From assembly GCA_902826685.1 (NCBI GenBank), contig CADEFT010000026.1:1-64000 (forward strand): 64,000 bases of DNA. Reading direction: 5' to 3'. This document shows positions 14,247-36,700 of this stretch, piece by piece (within the stretch, counting starts at the first letter, position 1; each line of letters begins with the position of its first letter). The notes under the pieces were generated by a model. It made no database searches. It saw only the letters and a program-made list of their open reading frames with translations, and was not told where the DNA came from. The translations under genes and the position numbers were made by a program. Origin of the DNA: an uncultured Acidobacteriota bacterium. Its GTDB lineage: Bacteria; Acidobacteriota; Terriglobia; Bryobacterales; Bryobacteraceae.

Positions 14247-17200
14247 ATGAATTGTAAACTCGCAGCGATTCTGCTGTTGAATTCCGCCGCAATCTGGGCG
14301 CAGGGCACCGCCACGCTGGTGGGCCGCGTCACCGATGTGTCCGGCGCGGTCGTCGGCGGCGCCAAAGTCCAGGCGCGCAACACGCAAACAGGCCTCGAGC
14401 GCACCACCGTCACCGCCGAAAGCGGCGATTATGAGCTGCCGCTGCTGCCCATCACCGGCACCTACGTCCTCAGCTTTTCCAAAGACGGCTTCCAAACGCA
14501 GGAACGGACCGGTCTGGTCCTGCAAGTGGATCAGCGCGCCCGCATCGATGTTTCGATGAACGTCGGCACGGTGGCCGAACGCATCGTCGTCGAAGCCGCG
14601 GCGCCCGTCGTCAATACCGAAACCGGAACGATCGGCCAGGTCGTCAGCAACAAGAGCATCGTCGACCTGCCTCTCAATGGCCGCAACTACACGCAGCTTG
14701 CCGCGCTGCTTCCAAACGCCGTTGTGCAGAACTCCGGTACCGCCGGTTCCACCATGGTTTCGGTTTCCGGCGGCCGCCTGGGCAAGACCGAATTCCTGCT
14801 CGACGGCATCAGCCTCAATGAGCAGTTGTTTGACGGCGTGGCCGTGCGTCCCTCGGTGGACGCCATCGCCGAATTCAAGATCGTCTCCAATTCCTTTTCG
14901 GCCGAATACGGCCGCGGCAACGCCGTCATGATCGCCACCATCAAGGGCGGCACCAACGATTTTCACGGCACCGTTTATGAGTTTCTGCGTAATGACAAGC
15001 TGGATGCGCGCAACACATACCTGCCCACCAAGGCCACCTACCGCCAGAATCAGTTTGGCGCCGCCGCCGGTGGACGCATCATTCGCGACCGCGCGTTTTT
15101 CTTCCTCAATTACGAGGGCACCCGCATACGCCAGGGCCGCACCGCCAACCCGGTGGTTCCCACGCAGGCTTTCCGCGATGGTGACTTCTCGGCCCTTGCC
15201 ACGCCCATTCGCGATCCGCTTACGCAGCAGCCTCTGCCCGGCAACCGCCTGCCGGCGAACCTCATGAGCCCGGCCACACGCTACTTCCTGCAGTTCATTC
15301 CGCTGCCCACCACCGCCACCGGCACCGCGCCTTCCGCCCTGCCCTTCCGCAGCGGGGTCAACCAGGCCAACGCCCGCTTTGACTTCAACCTCACTTCGAA
15401 AAATTCGCTCTTTGTCCGTGAGACCTACACACGCCGCGAAGATTTCAGCCCAGGCGCTTACGCTAACAACGGCGGCTTCACCCAGGACAACCGTACCCAT
15501 AGCGCCGTCGTCACCGACACGCATATCTTCTCCGCGGCGGTGATCAACGAGTTGCGCGCCGGCTATACCCGGTTCTTCAACGCCAACCTCAACCAGGGCC
15601 TCGGCACCAACCACACCGGCCTCGCCGGCATCGGCGGCTTCGAGCTCACTTCGCTCAACTTCCCCGGCTTCCCGCAGCTTTCCATCGCCGGCTTCCAGGG
15701 CATCGCCGGCAACGCCTTCCAGCCGCTGGTCAATCCCTCCAATATGTATGAACTGGTGGACAACATCCGCTGGAACAAGGGCAGCCACTCGATGACCTTC
15801 GGCTTCGACTTCCGCGAATACCGCTTCACGTCCACCAACTCGGCCAATTCGCGCGGCGCCTTCAACTTCACCGGCGCCTATACCGGCAACTCCTTCGCCG
15901 ACTACCTGACCGGCTTTCCCTTCACCGGCAACCGCAGCTTCCCGCGCAACCAGTTCGGCCAATACGACCGCCGCTATCACTTCTACGCACAGGACGACTG
16001 GAAGGTCAATTCCCGCCTCACGCTCAACCTCGGGCTGCGCTATGAGCTGAACCGCATTCCGAAATTCATCAACGACCAGGCGGCGCGGTTCGATTTCGTG
16101 CGCAACAAGATCCAGGTGCAGCGCCGCGCCGACGGCAGCATCAACACCACCACCCAGCAGGTTTCCCAATTCGCCTTCCCCGTCTTTGCCGACGTGTTTG
16201 AAAGACCGGAGGATGCCGGCCTGCCCAACAGCCTCTTCTACCAGGACAAGAACGACTTCGCGCCGCGCATCGGCCTCGCCTACCGGCCCTTCTCCGACAA
16301 TAAGACCGTGGTGCGCGCGGGCTTCGGACTCTTCTACCTGCTCACCAGCGGCAACAACACCGTCAGCGTGCCGGTGATCAACGCGCCCTTCATCGTCGAT
16401 GAAGCCGCCAACCAGACCGCTATCGGAGGCGTGCCCCAGCGGCGCGTTGAAACCTTCTTCCCCGCCTTCTCCAGCGGCGCCAGCTTCCTGGCCGGCTTCG
16501 CCTTCGGGTTCGATCCGCGCATGGTCACCCCGCGCATGACGCAATACAACTTCGCCATTCAGCGCGAGCTCTTCCGCGATTTCTCGCTCGAAGTCGCCTA
16601 TGTAGGCAATCAGTCCCATCACCTCGAACGCGAACTGCAACCGGCCAACTTCCCCGCCATCAGCCCCGGCGACACGCGCCCCATCCAGCAGCGCCGCCCC
16701 AACCCGCGCTTCTCCGCCGGCAACTACTTCGACACCAGCGGCAACGCCCACTACAACGGGCTTGAAATCAAGGCCGAGAAACGGTTCTCAAAAGGCATCG
16801 GCTTCCTGGTGGGCTACAACTGGGGTAAGACTATCGACATGGATACGGCCGATCAGGGCAGCGGCGGTTCCGACAATCCCTACAACTACCGCACCATGCG
16901 CGGACCGGCCACCATCAGCTTCCGCCAGCGCCTGGTTTCGAGTTTCGTCGCCGACCTGCCCTTCGGCAAAAATCGCATCATCGGCGGCTGGCAGTTGGCG
17001 GGCATCCTGACCTTCCAGGGCGGTCTGCCGTTCACGCCCACTCTTGGCGCCGCCGATCCCACCGGCACCGGCCGTTCCTACGGCCTGCGTCCCGACGTGC
17101 GCGGCACCGGCGAAGTCGCCAACCCCGATCGCAACCAGTGGTTCAACATCGCCGATTTCCCCATCCCGGCGCAGTTCACCATCGGCAACGCCGGTCGCGG

Positions 17201-19608: not shown

Positions 19609-20286
19609 ATGAACTCCGTGCTGAACATCGAATCGCCCCTCGCCCTGTGCGAATTTGCCGAGCGAAATCTCTACACCGCCGTCGTGTCCGATTCGCTCGA
19701 TCAACTGGGAGTCCGCGGCCAGGCCATGCGCGAATACCTGCGCCCGGTCCACGCCAACTGCAAGTTCGCCGGCTGGGCGCGAACTATCTGCTGCTCGGAT
19801 ATCTATCACGTGCCCGCCGATCCCTACTCGATCGAGATCGAAGCCGTCGACTCGTTCCTGCCCGGCGAAGCCGCCGTCATCGGCACGCAGAAATCGGTGC
19901 GCAACGCTCCCTGGGGCGAATTGCTGTCCACCGCCGCCAAGGCCCGCGGCGCCCGCGGCGCCGTCGTCGACGGCCTCATCCGCGACGTCCGCAAGATCGA
20001 GGAACTCGGCTTCCCCGTCTTCGCCTCCGGCATCAAACCCGTCGACTCCATGGGCCGCGGCATCGTCACTTCCTACAACGATCCGGTCGAGTGCGGCGAG
20101 GTGATCGTCCACCCCGGCGACTTCGTTTTCGCCGACTTCGACGGCGTCGTCGTCATTCCCAAGGCGATGGTGCATCAGGTGCTTGAAATGGCCTACGACA
20201 AGGTGCGCCGCGAAGATTCGTCACGTTCGGAGCTGATGGGCGGTGCGTATTTGCGGGATGTATTTCGCAAGTATGGGGTGCTCTGA
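19609..20286 (+). CDS. RraA-family aldolase/decarboxylase-like protein
   Basis: 225 residues from the ATG at 19609 (AAGGA at 19601-19605). A longer frame starting at 19537 would overlap the IclR gene. It shows the RraA/HMG-CHA aldolase signature: GELL near 103-106 and VVDGLIRD at 119-126, with R125 and D126 matching the substrate- and metal-binding Arg-Asp pair of 4-hydroxy-4-methyl-2-oxoglutarate aldolases. Similar proteins are annotated as dimethylmenaquinone methyltransferase or RNase E regulator. With an IclR neighbour, a retro-aldol step in aromatic or sugar-acid breakdown is the most likely role. Confidence 0.85.
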   Translation: MNSVLNIESPLALCEFAERNLYTAVVSDSLDQLGVRGQAMREYLRPVHANCKFAGWARTICCSDIYHVPADPYSIEIEAVDSFLPGEAAVIGTQKSVRNAPWGELLSTAAKARGARGAVVDGLIRDVRKIEELGFPVFASGIKPVDSMGRGIVTSYNDPVECGEVIVHPGDFVFADFDGVVVIPKAMVHQVLEMAYDKVRREDSSRSELMGGAYLRDVFRKYGVL

Positions 20287-20291
20287 TGGAG

Positions 20292-20324
20292 TGTATAAGA
20301 ACAATTGTGAATTGTTCTTATACA
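20292..20324. promoter_or_regulatory. Perfect 33-bp palindrome, probable operator of the toxin-antitoxin operon
   Basis: Two exact 15-base arms, TGTATAAGAACAATT at 20292-20306 and its reverse complement at 20310-20324, surround the trinucleotide GTG. The element starts 6 bases after the RraA stop and ends 30 bases before the ParD-like ATG. Antitoxins of this type repress their own operon by binding such inverted repeats. A weak -35-like TTGTGA (20305-20310) falls inside it. No T-tract follows, so it does not look like an intrinsic terminator. Confidence 0.7.
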
Positions 20325-20354
20325 TGCTACCGTGTGGATTGGAGGCTCCATCCC

Positions 20355-20621
20355 ATGACCACGATGACCATCTCTCTACCGGAGTCGCTTAAGGACTTCA
20401 TCGAGCAACAGGTGAAAACAAAGGGCTATGGGAACACCAGCGAATATCTCCGCGGTCTCGTACGCAACGCGCAGGAAGCCGAATCGAATAAGCGGCTCGA
20501 AGCTCTTCTATTGGAAGGGCTCGAAAGCGGTGGCGCGGATATCGAAGCCGATCAGAAATTCTGGTCGGATCTGAAGACTGAGGCAACAGCCCTGCTTGCG
20601 AAGCGTAAAAAGCGGGCATGA
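20355..20621 (+). CDS. ParD-like antitoxin
   Basis: 88 residues. The ATG at 20355 has GGAGG at 20341-20345. The N-terminal MTTMTISLPESLKDFIEQQ plus YGNTSEYLRGLVRNAQE is the ribbon-helix-helix DNA-binding domain of ParD/CopG-type antitoxins. The charged C-terminus would wrap the toxin. It overlaps the toxin gene by four bases (ATGA), the usual antitoxin-first arrangement. It probably represses the operon through the palindrome just upstream. Confidence 0.9.
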   Translation: MTTMTISLPESLKDFIEQQVKTKGYGNTSEYLRGLVRNAQEAESNKRLEALLLEGLESGGADIEADQKFWSDLKTEATALLAKRKKRA

Positions 20622-20941
20622 AAATTGTCCTCCGCCCCGCGGCCCGCAGGGACGTTATTCTTCAGGTCGGCTATTACATCGACGAGCTTGCATACGAGGC
20701 CGCTGAGCGATTTCCCGCCGCGGTTGAGACAGCCGTTCAACAGATTGCGGAGCGGCCGGACATCGGGTCTTTGCAATTTTTCGATAGCCCAAAGCTCAAG
20801 GGACTTCGATGCCGGCCCGTCCCCGGCTTTGAAGACATTCGGATATATTACCTGCAACTTCAGCCTGGCCTGATTCGCGTAATCAGGATTCTCCATGGAA
20901 GGCGCGACCTCGCGGAAATCTTCAACGCGCCCGAAGAATGA
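20618..20941 (+). CDS. ParE/RelE-superfamily toxin
   Basis: 107 residues. MKIVLRPAARRDVILQVGYYI at the start, a helical region, then 'GLRCRPVPGFEDIRIYYLQL' and 'IRVIRILHGRRDLAEIF' match the ParE-like fold, including the C-terminal ILHGRRD strand. ParE members poison DNA gyrase while RelE members cut mRNA on ribosomes; the sequence does not decide between these, though the ParD partner and the HGRRD end favour ParE. It overlaps the antitoxin by ATGA. Confidence 0.88.
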   Translation: MKIVLRPAARRDVILQVGYYIDELAYEAAERFPAAVETAVQQIAERPDIGSLQFFDSPKLKGLRCRPVPGFEDIRIYYLQLQPGLIRVIRILHGRRDLAEIFNAPEE

Positions 20942-20998
20942 ATAAGGGTTCGGCGCCTCATTCTCAGACATCTCCAGGCGTGCTATCTGTTGAACTGC

Positions 20999-21754
20999 AT
21001 GGACGAGCTTTTAACCTCAATCGCCGCGAAGAAATCCCTTCTTGACGAATTGCGTCCCATCTCGCGGAAGGCTCTCGCCAGTCTTGAGCATTACTACGAC
21101 ATCGAGCTCACCTACACCTCAAACGCCATCGAAGGCAACACACTCAGTCCGGTCGAAACAACTCTTGTCATTGAGAAAGGAATCACCGCTGGCGGCAAGC
21201 CGCTCAAGGATCACCTGGAAGCACTCGACCACTACGACGCGATCCGCTACGTCCGGGAACTGGCCCGCCAGGAAACACCGATCACCGAAAGCGACATGCG
21301 CAACCTGCACAGACTGGTGATGCAGCGCTCCGCCCCGGACATCGCTGGGGGATACGCCGATCTTCCCCGCTATGTCCTTACAGAAACCGGCCGCCACGGC
21401 TTTCCTTCCCCCGCGGAAATTCCTGCGCTTATGGGGGATTTTGCGGGCTGGCTCTCAACAGCGCCGAATACCCCGAACACGTCATTCACCGCCCATCGCC
21501 GTCTTGTCGAGATTCACCCTTTCGACGACGGCAATGGACGCTCGGCGCGGCTTCTGATGAACCTCGTCCTGATTCGCGGAGGCTATCCACCCATCGCCGT
21601 GCGCCCGGAAGACCGCCTGGAGTACACCCGCAGTTTGCAAGCGGGGCAAGGCACGGACAGCTTCAACGCCCTGCTCTACCGGCGGCTGGATGCAACTTTG
21701 ACGGAATACTTGAGCGCCTTGCAACATTCTCAGCCCGAAAGTGGATCGCGATAA
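20999..21754 (+). CDS. Fic-domain protein (probable AMP transferase)
   Basis: 251 residues from the ATG at 20999; a TTG at 20990 is the alternative start and neither has a strong Shine-Dalgarno. The catalytic Fic motif HPFDDGNGR is at 173-181 and complete (His, Asp, Gly-Asn-Gly, Arg). An N-terminal inhibitory motif SNAIEGN is at 41-47 (E45), which places it in the class with a built-in autoinhibitory helix. The usual activity is AMP transfer to Tyr, Ser or Thr of a target protein; the target is unknown. It follows the ParE-like toxin by 57 bases and the PIN-like gene follows it by 4 bases. Confidence 0.92.
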   Translation: MDELLTSIAAKKSLLDELRPISRKALASLEHYYDIELTYTSNAIEGNTLSPVETTLVIEKGITAGGKPLKDHLEALDHYDAIRYVRELARQETPITESDMRNLHRLVMQRSAPDIAGGYADLPRYVLTETGRHGFPSPAEIPALMGDFAGWLSTAPNTPNTSFTAHRRLVEIHPFDDGNGRSARLLMNLVLIRGGYPPIAVRPEDRLEYTRSLQAGQGTDSFNALLYRRLDATLTEYLSALQHSQPESGSR

Positions 21755-21758
21755 ATCG

Positions 21759-22622
21759 ATGACTTCCCAGAAGCCCATTCTTATCTTCGACACCAGCGTG
21801 ATCAACAAGCTGTTCGATGAAAACCAGGAATTCGGGCCGCTGGCCGCTGGGCTTGAAGCCGGCTACTGGGTGCGGCTGACCGGCTCCAATATCAGCGAAC
21901 TCGCCGCGACGCAGGAACCTGAAAGACGAACCAAGCTTTTCGATACATGCCGACGGTTGCTCTCATCCGGCGAATGCATCGATCCTTTCGCCTGGATCGT
22001 GGAAAAGCACGTGAAAGCCTTCGATCAGAACGAGGAACACTACGAATGGGAATCCGTGGACATACGCAACGCCCCCATTGGGAAACACGTTGCGTTGCCT
22101 ACTGCCTTTGACGATGAACTGGCCGTGAGACAAAAGGAGAGCGCCACAAAAATGCAGCGCGGGTTCGAAGACTGGTTTTGCCGGATGCGCCCCGACTTCG
22201 ACGATATCCTTGCGAGGGGAGTTCCCCGTCCCCAAAACTTTGCGGCCTTCGTGACGATTCTCCAGGAGCCGTCTGGGGCCTTCTGGACCGGCTACGGCAG
22301 AATGATCTACGCACGTTTTGTGGCAGAAGAGCCTGACGAACAAAAGCTCAGACGCTTCGCCGGTCGCTGCCCACCGTTTCTGATGATGGTTCTGGCCCTC
22401 GCGCGAGCTCAATACTCGAGGGCGATTGTCGACAGGCCGACGAAGAAGAAGCGCGCCGGGCGCGTCGATCTCCTGACGTCCGTATACCTGCCATATTGCA
22501 GCGCTTTTGTCACGCACGATGATGACCACGCGGTGTGCCTGAGCGAAATGGCGAGGATCGCAAAGCTCGACCGGGAAATTCTTTCCTACACGAACTTTCG
22601 CAGAAGATTGTCATGCTTGTGA
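21759..22622 (+). CDS. PIN-like domain protein
   Basis: 287 residues from the ATG at 21759, 4 bases after the Fic stop. Acidic residues are placed as in PIN nucleases: D11 in LIFDTSVINKL, E47 in SNISELAA, D237 in AGRVDLLTSVYL, and D254-D256 in FVTHDDDHAVC. The insert between the second and third acids (about 190 residues) is longer than in VapC toxins, so it is not a standard VapC but a larger PIN-like protein. RNA cleavage is likely from the fold and not shown. Tight spacing says it is made together with Fic. Confidence 0.7.
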   Translation: MTSQKPILIFDTSVINKLFDENQEFGPLAAGLEAGYWVRLTGSNISELAATQEPERRTKLFDTCRRLLSSGECIDPFAWIVEKHVKAFDQNEEHYEWESVDIRNAPIGKHVALPTAFDDELAVRQKESATKMQRGFEDWFCRMRPDFDDILARGVPRPQNFAAFVTILQEPSGAFWTGYGRMIYARFVAEEPDEQKLRRFAGRCPPFLMMVLALARAQYSRAIVDRPTKKKRAGRVDLLTSVYLPYCSAFVTHDDDHAVCLSEMARIAKLDREILSYTNFRRRLSCL

Positions 22623-29904: not shown

Positions 29905-32900
29905 ATGCGCTTATCCTTCTGTCTCTCTGCCTTCACCTTCCTCGTTTCCCTTGCCTCGGCCCAGATTCGATCCGGCACTATTGTGGGCAAAGTAAGCGAT
30001 TCCAGCGGCGCGGCGGTCGTCGGGGTTGAAGTAACGGTACGGGAAATCAATACCAATGCCATCTTTACCGTAGAGACGAAAGAAACCGGCGAGTATCTGG
30101 CTCCTTATTTGCAGTTCGGCAGCTACGAGGTCAAGGCCAAAAAGGACGGCTTCAAGGCCGTCACACAGACCGGCATCAACCTCACCACGGCGCAAACGGC
30201 CCGCGTCGACATCGTGCTTGAAGTAGGCGCGGTCGAAACGTCGGTCTCGGTGGTGGCCAACGTGGTGGAACTGCAAACCGAGTCGAGCCGGGTCACCAAC
30301 GCCGTCTCCGAGCAGGTCATCAAGTCCATTCCCAACATCAACAACAATCCGCTCAACTACGCCGTGCTCCAGCAAGGCGTGGTGGCGCGCGCGGCGATGA
30401 ACGACACCCAGTCCGCCCAGAGCTTCGGAATCGGCACCGAGGGACGCCGCACGTTCTCCAATTTCCAAATAAACGGCGGCCAGTCGTTCGGTAACGACGT
30501 ACAACTGGATGGCGTTTCCATTCAGGCTTCGGCCTGGAACGAGGTGGCCGTGATGCCCAATACCGAGGGCGTGCAGGAAGTGAAAACCACCATCAACAAC
30601 ATGTCGGCCGAGTATGGCCGCAGCCAAGGCACGGTGATCATCACCACCAAGAGCGGGACCAATGAGTTTCACGGCTCGGGCCAGTTCCGTTTGCGCAATG
30701 AGGCGCTGAATGCGAACCGCTTCGAGAACAACGCCAACCAGCCCTACGTACCCCGTCTGCCGTTTAAGCAGCAAGGGTATTCGGCCACGTTCGGCGGGCC
30801 CGTGGTGTTGCCCAAACTCTATAACGGCAAAGACCGCACGTTCTTCTTCACCAGCTACGAGGGATTCCGCTTCAATCAGGCGCTGGACTACTTCCGGACG
30901 GTGCCCACCGCGGCCGAGCGGTCCGGCAATTTCAGCAACTCCCTGGCGCAGGTGGGCGGCGCGTTTGTCCCGGTGTCCGTATTCGATCCTTTCAACGTCA
31001 CGCCCGTGGCCGGAGTTTCCGGCCAGTGGCGGCCGAATCCATTCCCCAACGGCATCGTTCCGGCCAGCCGCATCAACCAGCAATTCGCCCGAATGGTCAA
31101 CCAGTTTCCGCTTCCCAATCGCACACCGGACGACGTTCGCGGCTTGAACAATTTTTACAATCGCATGGTGCGGAGATTTAAACGCGACGCGATCAATGCC
31201 CGCGTCGATCACCGCATGTCCGCTCACTCGCTCTATGGCACGTTCGGGTCCAACATCGGGTCGATCGACTCGCCCAACGGCTGGGGCGAGGGGACCCGCG
31301 CGTTCACCACGCAGGGAGGATTCATCGGCGGGGTGAACGGCGACCGCAACTACTACGGCTCGATCGGCGATACCTGGGTCATCAACCCCACCACGGTGGC
31401 GGACCTGCGCGTCGGCCTGACGCGTGTCGCGGCCGAGAACCGCTCGCAAACCTACAGCGACCTGAACTTCACCGAACTCGGTGTACCCTCGTCGTTCCTC
31501 GGCGCGCCCGGCCTGGCCGGCGCCTTCCCCGAATGGAATCAAGGCGGCGGCGGCTGGAACCTGGCAAGCGGCCTGAACAACACCGGCTACCTTGCCAAAA
31601 TCGAGCGCCAGACAAATTGGAACATCGTCGGCTCGGTGACCAAGACGGTGGGAAAGTGGACCCATAAGTTCGGCGGTGAATTCCGTAACTACCTTTCCAA
31701 TTACTCCGATGCACGCGGATCCTTCTGGTTCCGCTCGGCGGCCAACTTCACGGCGGGTAACATCATTCAGGCGCAAGGCCAGACCGTGAACGTGGTAACA
31801 GCGGAACAATCCGGATCGCCGATTGCCGCCGCTCTGCTCGGGGCGGGCGACATCCAGGCGGGAGAGAATGCCGTGCTGCTGGCGCTGTCGGCCAAATACG
31901 CGGCCTTTTACGCGCAGAGCGACTGGCGAGCCACCAGCCGCCTGACCGTAAATCTGGGGCTGCGCTACGACCTGCAGCAGGCGCCAAGCGAACGCTATAA
32001 CCGTATCTCCAGCTACAGCTATCGCGGTAACAATCCCTTCGGCGCGGCCGGGAATTTCATGTTCCCCGGCAACAACGGCATTGGCAAGAGCCTTTACAGC
32101 ATGCCACTCGATAACCTGGGCCCCCGTCTCGGGCTGGCCTACCGGGTGACCGATACGTGGGTGGTTCGTTCCGGCTTCGGCGTCACTTACACTCCTTCGA
32201 ACACCGGTTACTTCGGCGGCCCCTATTACTTCGGAGCGCAAAATTTCGTCGACCGCACCAATCAGCCAATTGCCGGGCAATATGGATCGAACCCGCAAGG
32301 CGCACTGGTGGCGCCCTACAACCGCGTAACCGAATTAATAACCGCCATCGGCTCGAATCGAAACGCCCCTCAGTACTACGGCGACGGCTCGAACGAGCCC
32401 CGCTTCGACTACGACACGATGAAGAACGGCAAGATTCTGCAATGGAACCTCTTTGTCGAGCGCAAGCTGGGCCAACAGTGGCTCGCCCAGATCGGTTATT
32501 CGGGCGCGCGTGGCTACCACCTGCAACTTGGCCGCTACAACGTCAACAGCGATCAGGACCTGCCCGATTCCCTCCTGCAGACCTGGCGCAGCCAGTACAT
32601 TGCCAGCAACGGAACCAATCCGGCCAACCAGCAGGTGCTGAACACGTATCAACCCTCCACGGGCGCGCGCCTGCCTTTCAACGGCGTTTTCGCCAACCCC
32701 ACCGTTCCGTTGCGCAACACCCTGCTGCCCTACACGCTCAATCCGAACAACCTGATCGGGGCTCCGCAGGGTTACTACACCTACAACGCCCTGATGACGC
32801 AGATACAAAGGAATTTCTCGAAGGGCCTGCTGTTCAGCGTGCACTACACCTGGTCCCGCACCATAGAGAACTGGTTCGGCGAGGCGCAGGGCAATAATTT

Positions 32901-33693
32901 CGCCGAAAACGCCGGCACCGCGCCCGCGACGCTCGACCGCCGGAACCTTTCCAACAGCTACTACATTTCACCGAACGACATCCCGCATCGCGTGGTGGCG
33001 ACGTGGGTGTGGACTCCGCCGGTCGGCAAGGGCCGTTCGCTCGACTTCAACAACCGGTTCGCCAACGTCGTGCTGGGCGGCTGGAATGTCGGCGGAACGT
33101 TCATCGCGCAGTCCGGCCAACCCCAGCAGGGCTTCACCGGGGCAACCGGGTCGTTGACCGGATTAGGCGACCGTTTGGCGGGTGTGCCCGTGGAAGTGCC
33201 GAAGGAACTTCAGCGTTGGTACAACAGCGCCAGCACCGCCGACCGGACGGTGAGGCTGCCCAGCGGACGCAGCGTCACGGTCTGCCGCTATTGCTTCCTC
33301 AAGTACAGCGCGGATGCCTTCAGCGGGCGTCTGGTCACCACAGCCAACGGCGGCGTTCAACCGGATATCTACTGGTTCGGCTCGGCGGCGCTACGCTATG
33401 GCGACATTCGCGGAAACGGCCGGTGGAACGTGAACATGAGCCTGCAGAAAGAGATTCCGATTCGCGAACGCTTGCAGTTGCAGTTCTCGGCGGAAGCTTC
33501 CAATCTTTTCAACAACACGCAGTTCCGGCCCCAAATGACCGCCGGACTCGGGAGCACATTCACGGCCGTCAGCGCCGCTCAGGCGGCTCAAGGGATCAAG
33601 CCCGGCATGATCCAGAACGACAACTTCGGCACCTGGGGGATGACGACGTTCGATCCGCGCCAGGTCGAACTGCGGCTCCGGTTGCGATTCTAG
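29905..33693 (+). CDS. Oar-like TonB-dependent outer-membrane receptor (largest copy)
   Basis: 1262 residues from the ATG at 29905, with CAGGAGCT at 29893-29899; a TTG at 29887 is an unlikely alternative. Signal peptide (MRLSFCLSAFTFLVSLASAQ), CarboxypepD_reg domain at about 20-105, plug to about 270, and a beta-barrel ending LRLRLRF. A two-cysteine segment (VTVCRYCFLKYSADAF) in the late barrel is unusual for these receptors. It is about 180-200 residues longer than its window neighbours, mostly in barrel loops. It lies on the same strand as the receptor at 33785, separated by about 91 bases. Confidence 0.9.
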   Translation: MRLSFCLSAFTFLVSLASAQIRSGTIVGKVSDSSGAAVVGVEVTVREINTNAIFTVETKETGEYLAPYLQFGSYEVKAKKDGFKAVTQTGINLTTAQTARVDIVLEVGAVETSVSVVANVVELQTESSRVTNAVSEQVIKSIPNINNNPLNYAVLQQGVVARAAMNDTQSAQSFGIGTEGRRTFSNFQINGGQSFGNDVQLDGVSIQASAWNEVAVMPNTEGVQEVKTTINNMSAEYGRSQGTVIITTKSGTNEFHGSGQFRLRNEALNANRFENNANQPYVPRLPFKQQGYSATFGGPVVLPKLYNGKDRTFFFTSYEGFRFNQALDYFRTVPTAAERSGNFSNSLAQVGGAFVPVSVFDPFNVTPVAGVSGQWRPNPFPNGIVPASRINQQFARMVNQFPLPNRTPDDVRGLNNFYNRMVRRFKRDAINARVDHRMSAHSLYGTFGSNIGSIDSPNGWGEGTRAFTTQGGFIGGVNGDRNYYGSIGDTWVINPTTVADLRVGLTRVAAENRSQTYSDLNFTELGVPSSFLGAPGLAGAFPEWNQGGGGWNLASGLNNTGYLAKIERQTNWNIVGSVTKTVGKWTHKFGGEFRNYLSNYSDARGSFWFRSAANFTAGNIIQAQGQTVNVVTAEQSGSPIAAALLGAGDIQAGENAVLLALSAKYAAFYAQSDWRATSRLTVNLGLRYDLQQAPSERYNRISSYSYRGNNPFGAAGNFMFPGNNGIGKSLYSMPLDNLGPRLGLAYRVTDTWVVRSGFGVTYTPSNTGYFGGPYYFGAQNFVDRTNQPIAGQYGSNPQGALVAPYNRVTELITAIGSNRNAPQYYGDGSNEPRFDYDTMKNGKILQWNLFVERKLGQQWLAQIGYSGARGYHLQLGRYNVNSDQDLPDSLLQTWRSQYIASNGTNPANQQVLNTYQPSTGARLPFNGVFANPTVPLRNTLLPYTLNPNNLIGAPQGYYTYNALMTQIQRNFSKGLLFSVHYTWSRTIENWFGEAQGNNFAENAGTAPATLDRRNLSNSYYISPNDIPHRVVATWVWTPPVGKGRSLDFNNRFANVVLGGWNVGGTFIAQSGQPQQGFTGATGSLTGLGDRLAGVPVEVPKELQRWYNSASTADRTVRLPSGRSVTVCRYCFLKYSADAFSGRLVTTANGGVQPDIYWFGSAALRYGDIRGNGRWNVNMSLQKEIPIRERLQLQFSAEASNLFNNTQFRPQMTAGLGSTFTAVSAAQAAQGIKPGMIQNDNFGTWGMTTFDPRQVELRLRLRF

Positions 33694-33722
33694 ACGCCGC
33701 CGTTCGCTTCATCTTGCGCTCC

Positions 33723-33751
33723 TTGAATCCCGCAACGGGATGATATAGGCT
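33723..33751 (+). promoter_or_regulatory. Weak putative promoter for the receptor gene at 33785
   Basis: TTGAAT (33723-33728), a 17-base spacer, TAGGCT (33746-33751). An alternative -10, TATAGG, would have a shorter spacer. The spacer holds a small TCCCG/CGGGA inverted repeat. The evidence is only a modest consensus match. Confidence 0.25.
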
Positions 33752-33784
33752 TTATTGCTACTGCCTAAGGGGGGCAACGCTGGG

Positions 33785-36700
33785 ATGTCACTCTCTCGCA
33801 ATCTGCACTTTGTGCTTCTTTCCGTTTTGGCCACTGTGCTCGAAGGCCAGGAAACCACCGGCTCCATCGTCGGCGTCGTGCGCGATGCCAGCGGCTCGGT
33901 GGTCACCGGAGCGCAAATCACCGTCACCCGGTCCGACACCGGAACCGAATCCCGCACCACCACAGACGATCAGGGCAACTATCAGTTGCCGCTATTGCGC
34001 GCCGGCGTCTACAAGCTCACCGCCGAGCTTTCCGGCTTCCAGAAACTGCAGCGCGACAACGTCGTCGTCAACACCACCGAGCGCTCCCGCGTCGATCTCA
34101 CCCTCAGCGTCGGTTCGGTCACCGAGACCGTTTCCGTTACCGCCGAAACGCCCCTGCTGCAGAGCGAGAAAGCGACCATCGGCCAAGTAGTGGAGCAGCG
34201 CACCATTCAATCCATCCCGCTCGCCACTCGCAATTTCACCCAGATCCTCGGCACCTCGGCCGGTGTCGTCGGCGCCATCTTCAACGCCGATAACCCCGGC
34301 ACCGGTTCGGATTCGGTGAGCGTGAACGGCGGCCGCCGCGGCTCCAATAACCTGCTGGTCGATGGCGTTCCCACCACCAATCCGCTCAATAACGCGCCCG
34401 ACGGCGACGGCACCCCTTCCATCGAATTCCTCAGCGAGTTCAAGGTGCTCACCAGCCTTTACAGCGCCGAATATGGCCGCAATCTGGGATCGGTGATCAA
34501 CGTCACCACGCGCTCCGGCACCAACGGCCTGCATGGCACCGCCTACGAATTCCTGCGCAATACCGCGTTGAACGCCCGCCCCTTCTTCAGCCCGCGCCGC
34601 GGCCAGAACAACCAGAATCAGTTTGGCGCCAACATCAGCGGACCCGCCATCATTCCCAAGATTTACAACGGCAAGGATCGTACGTTCTTCTTCGCCGGCT
34701 GGGAGAGCTCGCGCCAGTTGAACGCCAATTCGACGGCGGCTGCGATTGTGCGCGTTGTGCCGACTCTGGCCATGCGCGACGGCAACTTCAGTGGCGCCCG
34801 AACCATTACCGACCCCTCCACCGGACAGCCCTTTCCGGGCAACGTCATCCCCACCTCACGCATTAACGCCATTTCCAAGGCCATCCAGGACCAGTTCATC
34901 CCCCAGCCCAACTTCATTTCCGGCGCCAGCAATTTCTTCGCCGCCCGCTCCATCGCCACCAACATCGACCAGTACACCTTCCGCATCGACCATCGCATCA
35001 GCGATAAAGACACCATCTTCGGCCGCTGGTTTGAAAGCTGGCAGAAGGATATCTCCCCCTTCGGCGCTGGATTGCCCGGCTTCGGCCAGAACGCCAATCG
35101 CCAGAAGCATTCGGGCCAGGTTACCTACACCCGCGTCTTTTCCGCCGCCCACGTGCTCGAAGGCCGCTTCGGATTCGACAACACCGATCAGTTCATCAGT
35201 TTCGAAAACGACGTCAACCCCACCACGCTCGGCTTCCGGCCGCTGCCGGTGACTTTGATTCAGGGCCTGCCCCGCGTCGACATCGTCAACTACGTCACCT
35301 TCGGCAATACCAACAACTGGACCGACCTCATCAAGCGCTACACCATGGGCGCCACCATGACCTGGGCGAAATCGAAGCACAACGTCCGCTATGGCGGGGA
35401 ATTGCAAATTCAGCCCATGAATCCCCAGAACGCGCAGGAGTCGCGCGGTTCCTGGCGTTACGACGCCGCCGCCACCGGCGACGAGTATGCCGATTTCCTG
35501 CTCAGCCAGCCGCGCCTCAAAACGTTTGCCGCCGGGCCCGGCCAGATGCACATGAAGGATCACGTCCTTTCCTTCTTCATCAACGACGACTGGAAGGCAA
35601 CCAATAAACTGACGGTGAACGCCGGCATGCGCTACGAAGCCCACTTCCACCCAGGCGGCACCGACCTCGATTTCGTCAGCTTCTGGCCACAGCGTTACAC
35701 CGGCGTCGGGTCGCTTGAAAGCTCCGGCATGATCCAGGCCAACCGCAACGGCATCCCGCCCACCACCATCTTCGGCGATTGGAATAACCTCGCCCCGCGC
35801 ATCGGCATCGCCTACCGGCCTTCCGATAACTGGGTGATCCGCACCGGCGCCGGCCTGTTCTTCGATCTGCGCTCCGGCCAGACGGCGCAGGCGTTCTTCG
35901 GTAACCCGCCCGTGTTCACGCGCACCACGCGCGATTGCCGCGTAGCCGGCAGCGGCTGCACGATGACGACACCGGATAACTGGACCTTCGTCGATCCCGG
36001 CTACGACGCCAACAACATCCCGTTCCCGGTGCGGCCCACGGACTCGCTCGTCATCGGCGCCATCGAACCCAATACCAAGACCGACAACGCCTATCAGTAC
36101 AACTTCAGCCTCCAGCGCCAGCTTCCCCGCAACGTCCTTCTGGAAGCGGCCTACGTCGGAACCAAGGGCACCCACCTGATCGCGCGCCGCAATCTGAATC
36201 CTTTGATTCCTCTCTCCGGCGGCGTTCTCCAGCGCGCCTTCCCCGGCTTCGGCGACATTTTTGCCACCGGCCAGAACGGCAGCTCCACGTTCCATTCCTT
36301 CCAGTTCACCTTCCGCCAGCGCATCGGCACGGCCAATATTCAGGCCGCCTATACGCTCGGCAAAACGCTCGGCAATGGCGACGACGGCGCCCGCTTCCAG
36401 ACCAACATCTTCCGCACGCCCTGGAACGATTTCTCCCGCGCCAAAGGACCGGCCAATTTCGACCGGCGCCACCGTCTGGCGTTGACGTTCGTGCAGGACC
36501 TTCCCAACAAGTTCGCCGGAGGCGCCGGTAAGTTCCTGTTCAACAACTGGTCGCTCAACGGCTTCTTCGTCACCCAGACCGGCAACCCGATCACGGTCAT
36601 CAACAGCACCAGCGGCCTCGATCTGGGCGGTATCGCCACCGACGTCGCCGGCGCCTTCAACTCCGACGTGGTCGCCGGAGCCGCTCTCACCACCGGCGGC

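Follow-up and report, generated by a model that had tools for sequence, protein, structure and literature searches.

A perfect 33-bp palindrome upstream of an acidobacterial parDE operon is a predicted three-subsite ParD operator overlapping a putative -35 element

The window analyzed here is a 64,000-nucleotide stretch of DNA from an uncultured member of the Bryobacteraceae (Acidobacteriota; assembly GCA_902826685.1, contig CADEFT010000026.1, positions 1 to 64,000 of the forward strand). It encodes a predicted type II toxin-antitoxin pair, with a ParD-family gene followed by an overlapping ParE-family gene, both with profile matches above the cut-off. The antitoxin gene parD (20355 to 20621, plus strand) encodes 88 amino acids with the N-terminus MTTMTISLP and matches PF03693 (25.2 bits; cut-off, 21), TIGR02606 (49.7 bits; cut-off, 46.2), and the sequence of the solved ParD 7b22 (E value, 9.4e-7). 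The toxin gene parE (20618 to 20941, plus strand; 107 amino acids) overlaps the end of parD and matches PF05016 (37.8 bits; cut-off, 23), with no NCBIfam match at a threshold of 0.001. The parD start codon was placed at 20355 because relatives align from residue 1 and because GGAGG, the likely ribosome-binding site, is found at 20341 to 20345 (plus strand), 9 nt before the ATG. An alternative, longer open frame starts at 20286 and would place the palindrome described below within the coding region. The upstream neighbor of parD is an RraA-like gene (stop codon TGA, 20284 to 20286), beyond which lies an IclR-type gene that starts approximately 0.7 kb from the palindrome. A Fic-domain gene (20990 to 21754; PF02661, 61.6 bits) follows closely after parE and displays what are, by eye, ordinary Fic features, including HPFDDGNGR and an N-terminal TSNAIEGN stretch. 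The product of the gene at 21762 to 22622 has the N-terminus PILIFDTSVINKL and appears PIN-like by eye, with no Pfam match at 0.001.

Sequence inspection and a repeat search mark positions 20292 to 20324, which read TGTATAAGAACAATT-GTG-AATTGTTCTTATACA, as a perfect inverted repeat without strand assignment, consisting of two 15-bp arms that are 100% complementary around a 3-bp center. The palindrome starts 5 bases past the RraA-like stop codon, and 30 bases separate its end from the ParD start codon. This confirms the first-pass annotation, which had described an exact 33-bp palindrome with perfect 15-bp arms around GTG upstream of parD, and its claim that such a repeat is far beyond chance is borne out as well. 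Based on base composition alone, the expected number of perfect inverted repeats with 15-bp arms and a 3-bp loop is 1.3e-4 in the window and 0.015 in the whole 7.42-Mb genome, or 0.14 in the genome when loops of 0 to 8 bp are allowed. The runner-up perfect inverted repeat in the window (loop of 0 to 8 bp) has 10-bp arms. When up to three mismatches are allowed, the arm matches only the palindrome's own two places in the window, and exact matching across the 7.42-Mb genome likewise returns these two places and no others.

Same-genus RraA orthologues with sequence past the stop codon (L108 to L112) were compared with the window. None of these five loci has the palindrome, and no parDE, parE, or Fic match is found in the approximately 1.5 kb beyond their RraA stop codons. 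Within the next 150 bases after the stop, their longest perfect inverted repeats (loop of 0 to 8 bp) have arms of 4 to 6 bp. Four of the five genomes have no ParD match, and the fifth (G001) carries parDE on another contig. This control leaves out L113 and L115, which reach no further than the stop codon or slightly past it, and L114, which stems from another family and whose RraA orthologue also lacks the palindrome. Larger regions from three of the five genomes retain the IclR-RraA pair, with RraA being 82 to 83% identical, and their contiguous homology to window positions 15001 to 40000 stops at the RraA stop codon; one of the three shows an extra weak match to 30052 to 34594 and none to parDE. 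Since same-genus RraA loci without parDE are also without the palindrome, the repeat goes with parDE and not with RraA. The nearest relative found, with a ParD of 75% identity, carries three direct TAAGA words at a 10-bp pitch in the same register. When its 9-kb region is compared to window positions 15001 to 40000, parDE is the sole match and the gene context otherwise differs.

ParD relatives were searched in overlapping sets of 101 near, 396 phylum, 257 order, and 399 class genomes, yielding a ParD match in 25, 41, 87, and 68 genomes, respectively. Because up to 30 loci were sampled per search and complemented by 40 regions hand-picked from the match lists, with the weakest left out, the comparison covers a part of the ParD matches. 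The resulting 153 ParD loci were reduced to 126 distinct loci, window included, by dropping 3 without a usable match, 23 duplicates, and 1 with a short upstream region. Counts by residue 5 of ParD leave out 9 of the 126 loci, in which this residue is neither Thr nor Asn or is unread. Pair counts use 33 Thr-5 loci, and typing, fitting, and register counts use 34 (L025 was set to Thr by hand). Loci from L081 onward were retrieved only once the subsite hypothesis had been fixed, following L021 to L080, and are therefore considered held out. In addition, a scan of genome contigs gave one distant relative, and a plasmid search gave 177 records, one of which covers at least 80% of the query.

Three 5-bp subsites are predicted within the palindrome at a pitch of 10 bp (one helical turn), in the layout TAAGA-n5-TGTGA-n5-TCTTA. 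Outer subsite 1 (TAAGA, 20296 to 20300) and outer subsite 3 (TCTTA, 20316 to 20320) are based on pair enrichment in front of ParDs that, like that of the window, have Thr at residue 5, with held-out loci included. The central subsite (TGTGA, 20306 to 20310), centered on the dyad at 20308, is based on its position in the triple; no strand is assigned to any of the three. The pair test counted TAAGA/TCTTA or TGGCA/TGCCA words, with at most one mismatch each, at a distance of 10 or 20 bp. TCTTA/TAAGA pairs precede 9/12 Thr-5 ParDs at 10 bp and 9/12 at 20 bp in the discovery loci, and 12/21 and 11/21, respectively, in the held-out loci; as these are relatives of the discovery loci, they do not represent independent events. 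The held-out controls equal 2.1 and 1.9 (shuffle means) and 2.5 (mean at other distances; maximum, 7), and held-out Asn-5 ParDs are preceded by the same pair in 1/42 and 2/42 cases. The reciprocal pair, TGGCA/TGCCA, is found before Asn-5 ParDs in 37/41 (10 bp) and 23/41 (20 bp) discovery loci and in 28/42 and 26/42 held-out loci (shuffle means of 4.6 and 3.9; other distances, mean of 5.8 and maximum of 14), compared to 1/21 and 2/21 held-out Thr-5 loci. Shuffle means over all discovery and held-out pair counts range from 1.2 to 4.6. Repeated upstream subsites one helical turn apart, the arrangement of a ribbon-helix-helix tandem operator, are hence a feature of many of these loci. The genome contains two further PF03693 matches, and the 110 bases in front of their start codons include neither a TCTTA/TAAGA nor a TGGCA/TGCCA pair at a distance of 10 or 20 bp when up to one mismatch is allowed.

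Per-locus typing, with a false-positive rate on letter shuffles of 1.7% for each type, assigns 22 of the 34 Thr-5 loci to the TCTTA type, 2 to the TGGCA type, and 10 to neither; the 83 Asn-5 loci comprise 60 of the TGGCA type, 22 of neither, and 1 of both. One locus (L170) is typed TGGCA, yet its triple looks TCTTA-like. Both outer sites reach the register threshold at 18/34 Thr-5 loci (window included) and 41/83 Asn-5 loci, and the central words across these 18 fitted Thr-5 loci include TGAGA, TAAGA, TGTGA, and others. A quick tree of 117 ParDs, built from few columns with the residue-5 column left in and accompanied by long-branch warnings, groups 31 of the 34 Thr-5 rows, with a starred branch (SH-aLRT of 95) uniting 29 of these, and places L042, L101, and L138 elsewhere. 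It contains four changes of residue 5 and two of operator type, with one independent pair on supported branches. L138 is a Thr-5 locus among Asn-5 ParDs with neither operator type. L101, a Thr-5 ParD nested among Asn-5 ParDs, has a TGGCA-type operator and is an exception to the link between residue and operator. Residue 5 as the sole determinant was rejected as unproven, given the single independent contrast and L101. The link between residue 5 and the subsites is best treated as a lead only.

A parD promoter is predicted in register with the subsites. Its -35 hexamer, TTGTGA (20305 to 20310, plus strand; 4/6 consensus), overlaps the central subsite, and a 17-bp spacer separates it from the hexamer (20328 to 20333; 3/6 consensus) of an extended -10 element, TGC-TACCGT (20325 to 20333, plus strand), both elements being in a register that is found in relatives. 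The -35 consensus TTGACA itself includes the 5-bp word TGACA. Among loci with the outer pair, TTG is found over the central site as the start of a -35 element at 12/18 Thr-5 (window included) and 34/41 Asn-5 loci. TAnnnT is located exactly 22 bp from the start of the central subsite at 11/18 Thr-5 (window included) and 19/41 Asn-5 loci, while 0.32 and 0.57 loci, respectively, are expected by chance. A simple sigma-70 consensus scan of the region did not call the predicted promoter, which is drawn from comparison across loci. Transcription would start near 20340, 3' of the palindrome, and a parD message begun there would therefore not contain the hairpin. At four Asn-5 loci (L028, L029, L046, and L047), a -10-like hexamer (TATCAT, GATAAT, TATGAT, TAGAAT) is visible by eye just ahead of the first subsite, so the operator may cover the start site there instead of the -35 element. 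Another locus (L026) carries an imperfect 59-base inverted repeat 143 to 85 bases before parD, upstream of the operator, which is perhaps the terminator of the preceding gene.

Taken together, the palindrome is very likely the operator-promoter of parDE, read by ParD on three subsites and repressing its own operon. An autoregulated toxin-antitoxin operator had been proposed at this position in the first-pass annotation, and comparison supports that proposal: other parD loci show the same arrangement of subsites and the same promoter register, and the five same-genus RraA loci without parDE beside them lack the palindrome. ParD ribbon-helix-helix dimers would sit side by side on TAAGA, TGTGA, and TCTTA, one helical turn apart, each inserting a two-stranded sheet into the major groove. 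The -35 hexamer would double as the middle subsite, and the right subsite would fall in the spacer just ahead of the extended -10 element, so that bound ParD would exclude RNA polymerase and repress parDE. ParE probably tunes repression by altering the number of ParD dimers that bind together. We infer each of these steps, namely, ParD binding, the three dimers, repression, and the ParE effect, from the sequence comparison.

The Kis-Kid proteins are unrelated to ParD and ParE, though that locus is also named parD. Kis-Kid operator region I is likewise a perfect palindrome over a toxin-antitoxin operon promoter, but it overlaps the -10 element, whereas the window palindrome overlaps the predicted -35 element (PMC4803016). 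In the ribbon-helix-helix fold, it is established that strand residues contact bases, and CopG/PrpA-type operators similarly accommodate adjacent dimers with the sheet in the major groove, although they use other recognition motifs (PMC9731233). CopA-SO binds GTANTAC-N3-GTANTAC, with a 10-bp pitch, and represses its own operon (PMC8706911). The CopA-SO/ParE-SO operator is therefore alike in its short near-palindromic units, 10-bp pitch, and position at the promoter of a ParE-type operon, and differs in having two units and other bases and in being experimentally proven. Vibrio cholerae ParD2/ParDE2 (7b22, 7r5a) shares a ParD with a ribbon-helix-helix N-terminus but has only distant sequence similarity to the window ParD (7b22; E value, 9.4e-7). 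In ParDE2, three CopG-type domains are placed back to back, giving three DNA sites, which favors the operator model; for Mycobacterium tuberculosis ParDE1, repression required both proteins, which counts against it (PMC10899793).

The mirror symmetry itself is not shared by the relatives. The outer sites of the 18 fitted Thr-5 loci are oriented as TCTTA-TCTTA (8 loci), TCTTA-TAAGA (6 loci), TAAGA-TAAGA (3 loci), and TAAGA-TCTTA (1 locus), the last being the window's own. Symmetric pairs in 22 other fitted operators (fit score of up to 2; L051 scored on only 13 positions) average 7.7/15 with a maximum of 12, and the window palindrome is thus an extreme case and not the rule. The 15-bp arm had been put forward as a possible binding motif, which finds no support, as relatives keep 5-bp subsites at a 10-bp pitch with at best 12/15 symmetric pairs. 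This suggests that three short sites, rather than mirror symmetry, are what counts, and perfect 33-bp symmetry is probably one of several solutions in the family and not required. Because the subsites are nearly two-fold symmetric, either orientation should work.

Template switching or selection could have produced the symmetry. The former, in which quasi-palindrome correction in a working operator extended the symmetry beyond the subsites, is compatible with the operator model and a possible, if rather doubtful, origin. The extra symmetry would be tolerated because subsite orientation matters little, and at the mean symmetry of the 22 other operators, 15/15 has a P value of about 5e-5 per locus, although symmetric pairs are not independent of each other. 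However, selection for symmetric binding would give the same picture, and the two directions of copying are indistinguishable.

Readings that detach the palindrome from ParD fare considerably worse. That the repeat serves the RraA-like gene as a transcription terminator or 3' hairpin, with a 15-bp RNA stem after the stop codon, is improbable. The repeat does lie only 5 bases past that stop, and the RNA of 20280 to 20360 folds at -30 kcal/mol (z score, -5.0). However, the stem is AU-rich instead of G+C-rich, a U tract is absent, no terminator is called, 0/5 same-genus RraA orthologues have the palindrome after the stop, and similar subsites lie upstream of other parD loci. Very improbable, too, is an operator mainly for another regulator, e.g., the IclR-type protein encoded beyond RraA: IclR regulators bind palindromes and this gene starts approximately 0.7 kb away, but the IclR-RraA pair is present without the palindrome in same-genus genomes (L108 to L110), and the subsites and promoter register are kept at other parD loci. 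We give least credence to a repeat of the REP or mobile-element kind or the end of an insertion. Such elements typically carry perfect inverted repeats and parDE appears inserted beside RraA, but exact copies of the arm are confined to the palindrome, and viral contigs gave no exact match to the inner 29 bp of the palindrome when any base was allowed at the three central positions. The first-pass annotation had named a terminator or REP-like element, shown by many unrelated copies, among the outcomes that would overturn the operator; no terminator is called and the arm is without a second exact copy in 7.42 Mb.

The idea that the arm offers a handle on co-regulated genes found no support, as no second full operator was found and both copies with two mismatches lie in coding frames. 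A genome-wide 15-mer scan with up to three mismatches gave 44 places (two being the palindrome), 24 of them listed without a locus, which exceeds the 20 for the reversed control. The pattern of three sites plus the -10 element, with up to two mismatches, gave three places versus two in the control and is mismatch-free at parD only. The two copies elsewhere in the genome with two mismatches are L003 and L004. L003 falls within long open frames. L004 (G000:C71:5903-5917) is located in the coding end of one gene, approximately 84 bases before a 363-amino-acid open frame, and may be a weak candidate for a second ParD site. At about 1497 to 1525 of L004, imperfect outer words, AAAGA and TCTTG, are 20 bp apart, with no TAnnnT in register.

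According to a 2021 paper, it was then not known how parDE transcription is regulated, and the operator of V. cholerae parDE2 had yet to be identified (PMC8251345). Our search of the open literature found no paper announcing a three-subsite, -35-overlapping layout for parDE in general; a preprint on an antitoxin DNA ruler exists, and for V. cholerae the layout may have been published already. Tandem ribbon-helix-helix operators are already known in ParE-type systems, and the interest here lies in the layout that the loci share. We tentatively consider it possible that ParD operators in the phylum follow a common ruler of three subsites one turn apart, with the -35 element as the middle subsite, written in two sister-group alphabets: TGGCA/TGCCA with Asn and TCTTA/TAAGA with Thr at residue 5, in the strand expected to contact DNA. 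If true, this would amount to a switch of recognition that conserves the layout and changes the letters. A layout recurring before dozens of parD genes would provide an exact operator model, specifying the bases, the number of dimers, and the cause of repression, and two subsite alphabets may offer a route to how ribbon-helix-helix antitoxins shift specificity and stay mutually insulated.
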